A stretch of 64,000 nucleotides of DNA from Bacteroidota bacterium. Lineage in GTDB: Bacteria; Bacteroidota; Ignavibacteria; UBA10030; SZUA-254. A program made the translations under genes and the position numbers. Below are positions 4,475-29,282 of this stretch, one piece after another (position 1 is the stretch's first letter; each line of letters opens with the position of its first letter). The notes under the pieces are model-generated. The model worked only from the letters and a program-made list of their open reading frames with translations. It had not been told where the DNA came from and made no database searches. The DNA lies in contig JAGVIE010000037.1 in NCBI GenBank assembly GCA_020056225.1, positions 1-64,000 on the forward strand, in the 5' to 3' direction.

Positions 4475-4511
4475 GCAAAGTTTCGGGATTGTTGATGCGT
4501 CTGAATTGGAA

Positions 4512-4526
4512 CTGAAGGTCGGATTT
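4512..4526. repeat. 15-nt duplicate of the tRNA-Thr 3' end
   Basis: CTGAAGGTCGGATTT is identical to 4606-4620, the 3' acceptor/T-arm part of the tRNA-Thr gene, 94 nt away in direct orientation. Duplicated tRNA 3' ends are typical of integrase attachment sites, but no integrase is visible nearby. Confidence 0.6.
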
Positions 4527-4580
4527 TCCGCCGAAGGCGGATCAGCCTCTGGCTGAGAACCCATCCCGCCTACAACGGGA
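4527..4580. repeat. REP-like cluster of three short palindromes
   Basis: Three hairpins in a row: TCCGCC-GAA-GGCGGA (4527-4541), TCAGCC-TCT-GGCTGA (4542-4556), and TCCCG-CCTACAA-CGGGA (4564-4580). The first two thirds match 29163-29192, inside a coding sequence. This looks like a small repetitive palindromic element. Confidence 0.65.
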
Positions 4581-4603
4581 CAGTTTACCCCGATAAATTT
4601 TTG

Positions 4604-4676
4604 AGCTGAAGGTCGGATTTGAACCGACGACCTGCGGTTTACGAAACCGCTGCTCTACCAGCTGAGCTACTTCAGC
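4604..4676 (-). tRNA. tRNA-Thr (anticodon CGU)
   Basis: On the minus strand the acceptor stem is GCTGAAG / CTTCAGC, the D arm GCTC-AGCTGGTA-GAGC, the anticodon stem GCGGT / ACCGC with loop TTCGTAA (anticodon CGT), and the T arm GTCGG-TTCAAAT-CCGAC. All four stems pair, and the discriminator base is T. CCA is not encoded. It decodes ACG threonine codons. Confidence 0.95.
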
Positions 4677-25571: not shown

Positions 25572-28500
25572 ATGAAGCGTAAATTCAGCATAATTCTCCT
25601 CTCGTTAATCTTGTTCTTTATTGGATTTCTTGGAGTAGAGCATCATTCAAAACTTCCCTCGAATACCAATGAACAGGTGAAGTTAGAAAGCGGCGCATGG
25701 AAAGCATTCGAGTGGTGGTACGCCCAAAGGGCGCTGCCGTACGAATTTATTCCGCGTGCCGGGTTCCAAAAGGCGGTTCGCTATCTTCAATCCTCCATGA
25801 AGAAGGAAAGGAAACTTCTTGCAAACGGATTGTCGAGTTCGGAATGGACTTCTATGGGACCGACAAATATCGGCGGACGAGTTCTTGCTATCGCGGTCAA
25901 TCCTGACAATACAAATATCGTTTGGGCAGGATCGGCAAGCGGAGGATTATGGAAATCTATATCCGGCGGAACAGGATCGAATGCCTGGAATTATATTAAC
26001 ACCGGATATAGTTCGCTTTCTATCAGCGCGATTGTTCTCGATCCGTTCAATCCGAATATCATGTACATCGGAACCGGTGAGATCAGCATGTATCACCGCC
26101 CTTTGGTCGGAACACCCGGCGCTCGCGCATCTTATGGTATGGGAATACTGAAATCTACAGACGGCGGAACTACATGGAATCAGACGGGATTACTTTGGTC
26201 GTTCCCTGAAATTACAGCCGTACAAAAAATAGTAATCAACCCGCTCAACACTCAAACTATTTTCGCGGCGACAAGCGAGGGTGTGTATAAATCGGTCGAT
26301 GCCGGATCCACATGGATAAGATCGAATTCCGTTCTCATGGCAATGGATGTTGTGATAAATCCAAACGATACATCGACACTTTTTTCATCGCATGGAAATC
26401 TTGACTCATCCCCAAATCCCGGTTTATACAAAACGGTAAATACAGGCGCATCATGGTTTATGCTTACCAATGGATTACCCGCTACCGGCTTCGGCAGAAC
26501 ATCTCTTTCGGTCTCACCTTCGAATCCATCGGTCATATATGCGAGTATTTCCGATGCGATGTCCGGCGGCGCGCTGGGTTTATACAAAACTACAAACAAC
26601 GGAAATGCTTGGACCCTTGTTAATTCTACCAACATTTTCGGATCGGTTAGCCGCCAAGGATGGTATGATAATGCGATAGCTGTACATCCGGCAAATCCCG
26701 ATACGATCTTTTGTGGAGGAATAGATGTTTATAAATCGACAAACGGCGGCGGAAACCTCGGCGTAATATCAGTCGGTGTCGTTCATGTCGATCAACATGC
26801 GATCGCCTTCGATCCGACAAATTCGAATATAATTTATTTCGGTACAGACGGCGGTGTTTATAAAACGATCGATGGCGGAACATCATTCATCAACTGTAAC
26901 AACGGATTTGTAACTACCCAATTTTATCCGGGTTTCGCAAACGCATATGATGATTCTACGATAGCAATCGGCGGATTGCAAGACAACGGAACTTTAAAAT
27001 TTTCCGGCGGCGGCTACTGGGGCAATCTTCTTGGCGCTGACGGCGGTTTCTGCGCAATCGATCCGAACAACCACGATATCATGTATTATGAAACTCAATG
27101 GTTACAACTTTACAAAACTACAAACGGCGGATGGAGCGCCGCATATAAAGTTTACGGTCTTCCAACCGGTTCCGGCAATTCCAATTTCATCGCTCCATTC
27201 GTTATTGCACCGTCCAATTCCAATATTCTATATGCAGGAAGTAAAAACGTTTATAAGACAACAGATAGAGCTGATTCATGGTTCTCCTCAAACGGTCAAA
27301 CATCACTTAACGGAACAAACATAGCTTGCATCGGTGTCGCGTTCACCAGCGCAGATACATTAATCGCCGCCACAGGAACCGGGGCTTTTGGTGTGACACC
27401 GGTTTTTGAAGTTTTTGCCTCTGTGAATGGCGGTCAGTTATGGACGAACGTTACAAATCATCTAAACGGCAACCAAAATCTTCCGGATAGATATCCAACC
27501 GATATTGAATTCGATCCAACAAACAGCGCGGCCGCATATTTAACCTATTCCGGTTACGGAACATCTCATCTTTTCAAAACAACCGATGTCGGACAGAATT
27601 GGATTGATATTTCCGGGACATTACCTGATATACCGCATCAGGCAGTTTGCGTCGATCCCGAAGATCCGGCAAATGTTTATGTAGGAACTGATCTCGGCGT
27701 TTTTCATTCTTCCGATTATGGATTGAGCTGGGAAGAATTTTCCAGCGGTATGCCTTCAGCTATGGTATTGGATGTTACGATATCGCGACGGAACGGAAAA
27801 CTTCGAGCTTCAACATTCGGCAACGGAGTTTACCAGCGTCCTCTGGTACGTATTCCTTCGATTGATCTGACCTCGCCGAACGGAGGAGAAGTTTGTGTAG
27901 CCGGAGCTGAAGAAACTATCACATGGTCGAAAAAATTTGTTGATCGCATTAAACTCGAATACACTTCGGATAATGGAACTACATGGAATCTGATCGCCGA
28001 TGATATCCCGGCATCAAACGGTTCTTATCTATGGTCAGTGCCAGCAGTTGGAACAGATCAAGCGCGTGTGCGGATTACAAACACAGGACTGACTTCTGTC
28101 ACCGATTCAAGCGATGCACCGTTTACGATATTGTTGCATGCAGATGCCGTGAGGGGATGGAATCTGCTATCACTACATCTGAATGTTTCCGACCCGCGAT
28201 CATCGACTATTTTCCCTACTGCAACCGGATATACTTACTCGTACAATTCATCATACATAGCACGAGACACATTATTGAACGGTGTTGGGTATTGGATAAA
28301 GTTCGGTGTACCCCAACTCATTCCTATCATAGGCGATTCAATCGAAACCGATACAATCGATTTGAAGGCAGGATGGAATATGATAGGTTCGATATCAAAA
28401 AGTGTTGCAGTGAATAATATTACTGAGATACCTTCGGGTATCGTGATGTCTTCATACTTCGGATACAGCAACGGTTATAGCGTCGTTGACACGATAAATC

Positions 28501-29282
28501 CCCGATCCGGATACTGGGTAAAAGCCAACAGCGACGGTATATTAGTACTCTCGACATCAACCGGTCGTTCGCAATACAGAGAAAATGTTTTCTTTTCGAA
28601 GAACCATCTTAATACTTTGATTATCAGAGATAGCGATGGAAACCGCCAGACATTATATTTTACTCTTGATGACGCGAACGCTAATATCGACCGGTATACA
28701 TTACCGCCTCTGCCGCCGGCAGGAATGTTCGATGCGCGATTTACAACTCAGAGGATGCTGGAAATTATCCCGAACAATCTCCAGTCGTACTTTGAAAGAG
28801 CCATCATGCTCACATCGCCGCAATATCCTCTTACTATCAGTTGGGACATCGGTGCTGACAACATCGATTATTCTCTAATTGATGGCAATCGTAACATCAT
28901 CCCTATGATGGGCAAAGGATCAGTTACTATCCAACAGCCGACGACACAAATTGTTCTACACGCCGAAAGAAGCTTACAAACTACTCCGCTAACATTCAAA
29001 CTTGAACAGAACTATCCGAATCCGTTCAACCCATCGACACTTATCAATTATCAATTATCAAAAACCGGTCACGTTACATTGAAAGTATATAACACCCAGG
29101 GAAGAGAAGTTGCAACGCTGGTCGATGAAGTTCTGGAGGCAGGGTACAAATCCGTTGAGTTCTCCACCGAAGGCGGATCAACCTCTGACGGAAATGCAGG
29201 CAATCTCTCAAGTGGAATTTATTATTACAGGTTGACAACTAAAGATTTTACTGAAACAAAGAAGATGGTATTGCTAAAATAA
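25572..29282 (+). CDS. T9SS-sorted sortilin-like beta-propeller protein
   Basis: A 1236-residue secreted protein. After the signal peptide (IILLSLILFFIGFLGV) come BNR/VPS10-like propeller repeats to about residue 750 (GGLWKSISGG, GILKSTDGGTTW, GVYKSVDAGSTW, VYKTTDRADSW), an Ig-like domain at ~760-850 (SPNGGEV, LEYTSDNGTTWNLI), a ~140-residue module with GWNLLS...GWNMIGS...GYWVK (~855-996), and the type A T9SS sorting domain from ~1141 (LEQNYPNPFNPSTLINYQL). The sorting domain carries an extra TEGGSTSDGN stretch coming from a palindromic element. Propellers of this kind bind or modify glycans; no catalytic proof here. Confidence 0.88.
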   Translation: MKRKFSIILLSLILFFIGFLGVEHHSKLPSNTNEQVKLESGAWKAFEWWYAQRALPYEFIPRAGFQKAVRYLQSSMKKERKLLANGLSSSEWTSMGPTNIGGRVLAIAVNPDNTNIVWAGSASGGLWKSISGGTGSNAWNYINTGYSSLSISAIVLDPFNPNIMYIGTGEISMYHRPLVGTPGARASYGMGILKSTDGGTTWNQTGLLWSFPEITAVQKIVINPLNTQTIFAATSEGVYKSVDAGSTWIRSNSVLMAMDVVINPNDTSTLFSSHGNLDSSPNPGLYKTVNTGASWFMLTNGLPATGFGRTSLSVSPSNPSVIYASISDAMSGGALGLYKTTNNGNAWTLVNSTNIFGSVSRQGWYDNAIAVHPANPDTIFCGGIDVYKSTNGGGNLGVISVGVVHVDQHAIAFDPTNSNIIYFGTDGGVYKTIDGGTSFINCNNGFVTTQFYPGFANAYDDSTIAIGGLQDNGTLKFSGGGYWGNLLGADGGFCAIDPNNHDIMYYETQWLQLYKTTNGGWSAAYKVYGLPTGSGNSNFIAPFVIAPSNSNILYAGSKNVYKTTDRADSWFSSNGQTSLNGTNIACIGVAFTSADTLIAATGTGAFGVTPVFEVFASVNGGQLWTNVTNHLNGNQNLPDRYPTDIEFDPTNSAAAYLTYSGYGTSHLFKTTDVGQNWIDISGTLPDIPHQAVCVDPEDPANVYVGTDLGVFHSSDYGLSWEEFSSGMPSAMVLDVTISRRNGKLRASTFGNGVYQRPLVRIPSIDLTSPNGGEVCVAGAEETITWSKKFVDRIKLEYTSDNGTTWNLIADDIPASNGSYLWSVPAVGTDQARVRITNTGLTSVTDSSDAPFTILLHADAVRGWNLLSLHLNVSDPRSSTIFPTATGYTYSYNSSYIARDTLLNGVGYWIKFGVPQLIPIIGDSIETDTIDLKAGWNMIGSISKSVAVNNITEIPSGIVMSSYFGYSNGYSVVDTINPRSGYWVKANSDGILVLSTSTGRSQYRENVFFSKNHLNTLIIRDSDGNRQTLYFTLDDANANIDRYTLPPLPPAGMFDARFTTQRMLEIIPNNLQSYFERAIMLTSPQYPLTISWDIGADNIDYSLIDGNRNIIPMMGKGSVTIQQPTTQIVLHAERSLQTTPLTFKLEQNYPNPFNPSTLINYQLSKTGHVTLKVYNTQGREVATLVDEVLEAGYKSVEFSTEGGSTSDGNAGNLSSGIYYYRLTTKDFTETKKMVLLK
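29163..29192 (+). repeat. palindromic element inserted in-frame in a sorting domain
   Basis: TCCACCGAAGGCGGATCA and following bases match the element at 4527-4556 at 23 of the first 26 positions. It codes for TEGGSTSDG between KSVEF and NLSSGIYYY, where other T9SS domains have no extra residues. Confidence 0.65.

Follow-up and report, generated by a model that had tools for sequence, protein, structure and literature searches.

A 30-bp palindromic repeat found in frame in T9SS sorting domains and in housekeeping genes

The 30 bases at positions 29163-29192 are very probably a mobile palindromic repeat that has inserted into a gene without breaking it. The family to which they belong is dispersed in its own genome, and in genomes of Bacteroidota/Ignavibacteria and of the phylum of Candidatus Nomurabacteria, which we take to be the Patescibacteria. 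Its members lie in frame both in T9SS sorting domains and in housekeeping genes. The anatomy of the element and its in-frame insertion are well supported, with the proviso that all statements about genes rest on genome assemblies and that protein data are lacking. The features discussed here are collected in Table 1, where the window is the whole stretch of DNA that was analysed, 64,000 nucleotides in length.

Table 1. Positions of the two element copies and of the surrounding features in the window
Feature	Coordinates	Strand	Remark
Decayed 30-bp palindromic element, in frame, encodes STEGGSTSDG	29163-29192	+	reads TCCACCGAAGGCGGATCAACCTCTGACGGA
Host gene: 1236-aa secreted Sortilin/Vps10-type propeller protein with T9SS sorting domain	25572-29282	+	
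T9SS sorting-domain region carrying the insert	28983-29279	+	
Intact 30-bp double-hairpin element inside a tRNA T-arm-like fragment, splitting two parts	4527-4556	+	reads TCCGCCGAAGGCGGATCAGCCTCTGGCTGA, perfect double hairpin
3' part of the tRNA-like T-arm and acceptor fragment	4508-4526	-	adjoins the intact element (AAATCCGACCTTCAG...)
5' part of the same tRNA-like fragment	4557-4583	-	...GGGATGGGTTC
Intact tRNA-Thr(CGT)	4603-4676	-	adjoins the tRNA-like fragment

The 29163 copy lies in frame within the last 100 codons of the host ORF. This ORF ends in a T9SS type A sorting domain, with matches above the curated cut-offs of TIGR04183 (E 2.8e-11) and PF18962. The copy falls precisely between a Phe codon and an Asn codon in a loop of this domain, so that the ten residues it encodes are flanked by VEF and NAGNLSSGIYYY. 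The earlier note had correctly recognised an in-frame insertion in the propeller protein's sorting domain; its count of nine added residues (TEGGSTSDG) omitted the first Ser. Exact excision of the 30 bases leaves VEFNAGNLSSGIYYY, a canonical sorting domain (in the wider context ...YKSVEFNAGNLSSGIYYYRL...). In an alignment of the host domain with 24 others from the same genome, the ten residues stand opposite a 10-column gap, except in two other carriers. The loop is also empty in twelve homologues or orthologues of the host protein from the same family (48 to 60% identical), which supply the empty orthologue that had been proposed as a check. In an AlphaFold model built from the 25-domain alignment, the insert (residues 61-70, mean pLDDT 63) joins the strands 54-61 and 78-85, and the neighbouring blocks have pLDDT values of 87-95. 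The copies at 29163 and 4527 are identical at 26 of 30 positions; over the first 26 positions the agreement is 23, the figure given in the earlier note. Single-strand folding is stable for two intact copies. For the 29163 copy it gives a z value of 0.29 and no double hairpin, versus -3.67 for the 4527 copy. Since the double-hairpin fold has been lost, we read the 29163 copy as old.

The element consists of two abutting 15-bp hairpins, TCCGCCnnnGGCGGA and TnnGCCnnnGGCnnA. When up to one mismatch is allowed, TCCGCCNNNGGCGGA is found at 32 sites of the genome, versus 1 site for the reversed control. The double hairpin (TNNGCCNNNGGCNNA twice), with up to two mismatches, is found at 20 sites and its reversed control at none; the 29163 copy, which has three mismatches to the double hairpin, is thus the 21st copy of the genome. 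The proposal would have been refuted by only two genome copies together with similar residues in many unrelated sorting domains, and neither was encountered. The genome has 150 sorting-domain matches, of which the 30 best and 68 of unusual length were read. The remaining 52, at 252-264 nt as long as a domain without insert, were covered only by the whole-genome pattern searches, which found no copy in them. Three sorting domains carry the element, in the window, at C52:20169 and at C43:181419, in all cases between Phe and Asn. The absence of the stretch from other sorting domains, as originally asserted, therefore holds for the window and fails for the genome. Another domain (C9:63431-64303) has in the same loop a different repeat-like insert, TPSTSSGQL, and its DNA contains CCTTCGACAAGCTCAGG, presumably a widespread repeat. 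Further unrelated inserts, GC-rich or repeat-like, are also found in the loop between strands 1 and 2 of sorting domains (L322, L181).

Matches to the exact pattern are present in 13 of 395 genomes of the same phylum and in 53 of 379 genomes of the Nomurabacteria phylum, with no match for the reversed control in either set. A scan of one genome per species for the element together with the TTY...RATGC sorting-domain junction yielded 25 loci, all with an open frame in phase 0. Among them, 22 lie in the same sorting-domain loop, 1 at PNPF/N (the slash marks the insertion point here and below) and 2 in unrelated non-T9SS genes of small genomes. Overall, 127 distinct exact copies were read, 43 in sorting domains (all in phase 0) and 84 elsewhere. 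As this set mixes genomes found by the unbiased pattern with genomes found by the sorting-domain pattern, 43 in 127 is not a rate. The set also omits copies with a first hairpin other than TCCGCC...GGCGGA, such as the one at 29163. Across species, the insertion sites in sorting domains are F/N or F/D, PNPF/N, SGV/Y or SGI/Y, and the strand 1-2 loop.

Copies prefer TY/RA(A) as the target. Among the 84 copies outside sorting domains, position -2 is T in 68 and position +2 is A in 69; a pyrimidine directly precedes the insertion point (-1) in 78, and a purine directly follows it (+1) in 74. The full TY/RA motif is present at 50 of these 84 (expected 1.9) and at 36 of the 43 copies inside sorting domains, and is incomplete at 34 and 7 copies, respectively. 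The preference looks looser in the Nomurabacteria phylum, because only 10 of 30 copies have the full motif there and 20 do not. No target duplication is visible: direct flank repeats of 5 bp are found at 0 and of 4 bp at 1 of the 127 copies. Palindromic targets were considered and rejected, as flank complementarity beyond the TY/RA core has a mean of 2.74 of 10, compared with 2.56 in shuffles. Evidence for an insert-free site at the DNA level is confined to one intergenic copy (L288), for which a locus of the same genus (L316) reads AAAAATT/AAAAAA. In a further comparison within one genus, the orthologous sites L285 and L319 of two species both carry the element, and their first hairpins differ by compensating changes in both arms. 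In a candidate pair from sorting domains (L152 and L322), the supposedly empty partner carries a different insert in the same loop.

In genomes that were not chosen for their sorting domains (the carriers in the 395-genome search), a hand count places 14 of about 50 copies in sorting domains, which make up about 1.1% of the DNA of the genome studied here. A higher density of targets was examined as the cause of this enrichment and is not supported, with 27 motifs per kb in sorting domains versus 25 per kb in the window (the test used 100 extracted domains, at least two of which were frames other than sorting domains). Since the motif is not clearly denser in sorting domains, the enrichment suggests tolerance of the loops rather than targeting. 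This is inferred from the positions of the copies, and copying of domains may add to it.

Beyond sorting domains, family searches place in-frame copies in valine--tRNA ligase (valS, in two genomes at the same site), F1-ATPase alpha (atpA), D-Tyr-tRNA deacylase (dtd), a release factor and DprA. Further in-frame hosts include a phosphoglucose-isomerase-type SIS protein, a polyprenyl synthetase, an M48 protease, a P-type ATPase and an ABC transporter. In the Nomurabacteria phylum, the hosts are LepA (two genomes), isoleucine--tRNA ligase (ileS), RecG, PriA, DNA polymerase I (polA), DNA polymerase IV, a PBP2-type transpeptidase and TatD. Comparison with solved structures shows an exact 10-residue gap for Dtd (F/ED), AtpA and ValS. 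The gap is not one clean block in the alignments of the release factor and the polyprenyl synthetase, and five copies at gene ends may be extensions. A single-sequence AlphaFold model of Dtd was uninformative (mean pLDDT 35). Two frames are found among the confirmed genes: one gives SAxGGSAxGG, which closely resembles an artificial Gly/Ser linker, and the other reads PPxADPPxAE or QPxADPPxAE. An Arg run would result from the third frame; the queries for Pfam and NCBIfam were chosen as long open frames, and the absence of phase-2 examples is thus not a full count. As thirty bases correspond to ten codons, the reading frame is always kept, and as the element is a near-palindrome, both strands give similar peptides. 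An insertion can therefore be survived wherever a loop takes ten flexible residues.

The intact copy in the window lies in a tRNA-like context. ARAGORN does not detect a tRNA across the 4508-4583 junction, even after removal of the element. Outside sorting domains, 14 of the 84 copies fit a T-loop (GGTTC/GAATCC and variants) and 4 fit a D-loop of tRNA-like sequences; three further tRNA-like contexts were recognised by eye. When 61 copies were tested, an intact tRNA was found within 250 bp of seven, and only one copy (L162) became a called tRNA (Ser) once the element was omitted. The possibility that L162 is a tRNA with a functional insert in the T-loop was rejected in view of an intact identical stretch about 300 bp away in the same genome, which means that this copy can be a pseudogene. 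A tRNA-like fragment at C45:54686 carries two palindromes, the element in the T-loop and a different one, TCCCGTCTCGTTC-GGTA-GAACGAGACGGGA, at the position of the anticodon arm. At five loci, one of them L162, tRNA-Ser T-arm sequences with the element adjoin small GIY-YIG nuclease genes (the arrangement was read by eye for L162 and L283), and in one genome (G023) a GIY-YIG gene is located between an element-bearing tRNA-Ser copy and an intact tRNA-Ser. In some genomes, runs of TTGAAC-like repeats surround the element repeatedly (seven loci).

It is currently unclear what mobilises the element. We found no full-length related element, and only Y1_Tnp genes were sought. The most serious alternative to our reading, which we nevertheless regard as improbable, is a REP-like element mobilised by a linked RAYT (Y1/HUH transposase). 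It is in line with the short palindromes, and with Y1_Tnp matches in 9 of 10 carrier genomes (11 matches in the genome studied here, and 2 to 13 in other carriers except G007); among the 16 genomes, 4 of the 6 non-carriers have such matches as well. However, GTAG and CGTC tags are missing from the element ends, the element is absent from the surroundings of all 20 Y1 loci that were read (about 1.5 kb, or less at contig ends), and G007 has 8 element copies without any Y1_Tnp match. Y1_Tnp genes are thus frequent but unlinked, and a linked RAYT was set aside as the mobiliser. GIY-YIG nucleases, judged by a motif scan, were also rejected as a general mobiliser, because they are found near only 6 of the loci for the 127 copies.

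Alternatively, the element may have entered an ancestral sorting domain only once, and domain and insert may then have been copied together into further genes as a C-terminal cassette. In favour of this, sorting domains are numerous in the genome, and two loci of one genome (L178 and L191) have the same insert in near-identical loops. We nevertheless give this scenario little credence. The three sorting-domain copies of the genome studied here share 25 to 28 of 30 positions in the element, but only 29 to 43 of 60 in the ungapped flanks, and this speaks for independent insertions rather than for copies of a single domain. Moreover, there are four different sorting-domain sites across species, and the same element is found in unrelated genes.

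It is very hard to maintain that selection produced the Gly/Ser-rich loop as a normal feature of some sorting domains, with the DNA palindrome as a by-product of codon choice. Extensions of 5 residues are indeed present in the same loop in 5 of the 25 aligned domains, but the same 30 bases are also found between genes, in tRNA-like fragments and in essential enzymes. In addition, the arms are complementary. Second hairpins vary (with TCC, TCA, TGC, TGA and TAC arms), yet pairing is perfect in 116 of the 127 copies, despite two positions per arm having been left free in the copy search. A chance likeness between two GC-rich palindromes of the window, which differ at 4 positions, can be dismissed, since an 18-mer with up to three mismatches has 2 sites in the window as opposed to 0.11 in shuffles, reversed controls were empty in the double-hairpin searches, and the excision is exact.

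The mobile repeat remains the best explanation. By inference, the element would be selfish, and coding copies would be retained when the ten residues end up in a flexible loop, for example the connection of strands 4 and 5 in the sorting domain. It may move as single-stranded hairpin DNA, with a recombinase or transposase acting in trans and encoded elsewhere, and repair templated from arm to arm may keep the arms complementary; we favour this mode of movement, but as a combined proposal it is speculative and rather doubtful. The broadest picture is of a trans-phylum 30-bp element whose build protects the reading frame, with two hairpins, ten codons and two peptides that can be tolerated. It would move as hairpin DNA into TY/RA, add linkers to essential proteins and to secretion signals, keep its arms complementary by arm-to-arm repair, and pass between Patescibacteria and Bacteroidota. 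Taken in its entirety, this picture is a real possibility that falls somewhat short of being probable. The small size of the family relative to the Rickettsia palindromic elements (RPEs), its target preference, its presence in the same loop of many sorting domains and its occurrence inside valS, atpA, ileS, lepA, recG, priA and polA make precise tests possible. There is also a warning for annotation: in these phyla, a block reading SAxGGSAxGG or PPxADPPxAE is probably inserted DNA and not a conserved motif.

The best-known palindromes in protein genes are those of Rickettsia and Wolbachia, and to our knowledge it is still open how those elements move. Palindromes that code for protein have been described in Rickettsia, Wolbachia and one archaeon (PMC10969869, PMC2996958, PMC3733652). 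RPEs and the Wolbachia palindromic elements are described there as palindromic repeats that lie in frame within unrelated genes, housekeeping genes included, and between genes (PMC10969869, PMC2996958). REP and BIME sequences of the GTAG and CGTC super-families are palindromes of 20-40 bp, some of them inside ORFs (PMC3733652). The 30-bp element resembles them in being a short palindrome with some copies within ORFs. It differs in lacking the GTAG or CGTC tag, with ends and flanks that read TY/T...A/RA, and in having no linked RAYT/Y1 gene (20 Y1 loci). MITEs are short, have no transposase of their own, are probably mobilised in trans and are known to form in-frame fusions (PMC10969869). The 30-bp element is likewise short, has no transposase of its own and may be moved in trans, but shows no target-site duplication (127 copies). 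Our literature search gave no account of the 30-bp family, and the core palindromes sought as text led only to unrelated papers.

The closest parallel is with the RPEs, as the earlier note had suggested. The 30-bp element is of their kind: a palindrome dispersed in the genome, in frame and without stop in unrelated genes, with insert-free orthologues or homologues. The parallel concerns the way of working, and the element is not an RPE proper. RPEs of Rickettsia measure about 150 bp (PMC10969869), whereas the element described here has about a fifth of this length, is a double hairpin, prefers TY/RA(A) and is found in Bacteroidota/Ignavibacteria and Patescibacteria. By this analogy, and without a sequence comparison with RPEs, it appears to work as they do while belonging to a different, smaller and target-specific family, which on the literature searched we rank as new within the known kind of protein-coding palindromes.
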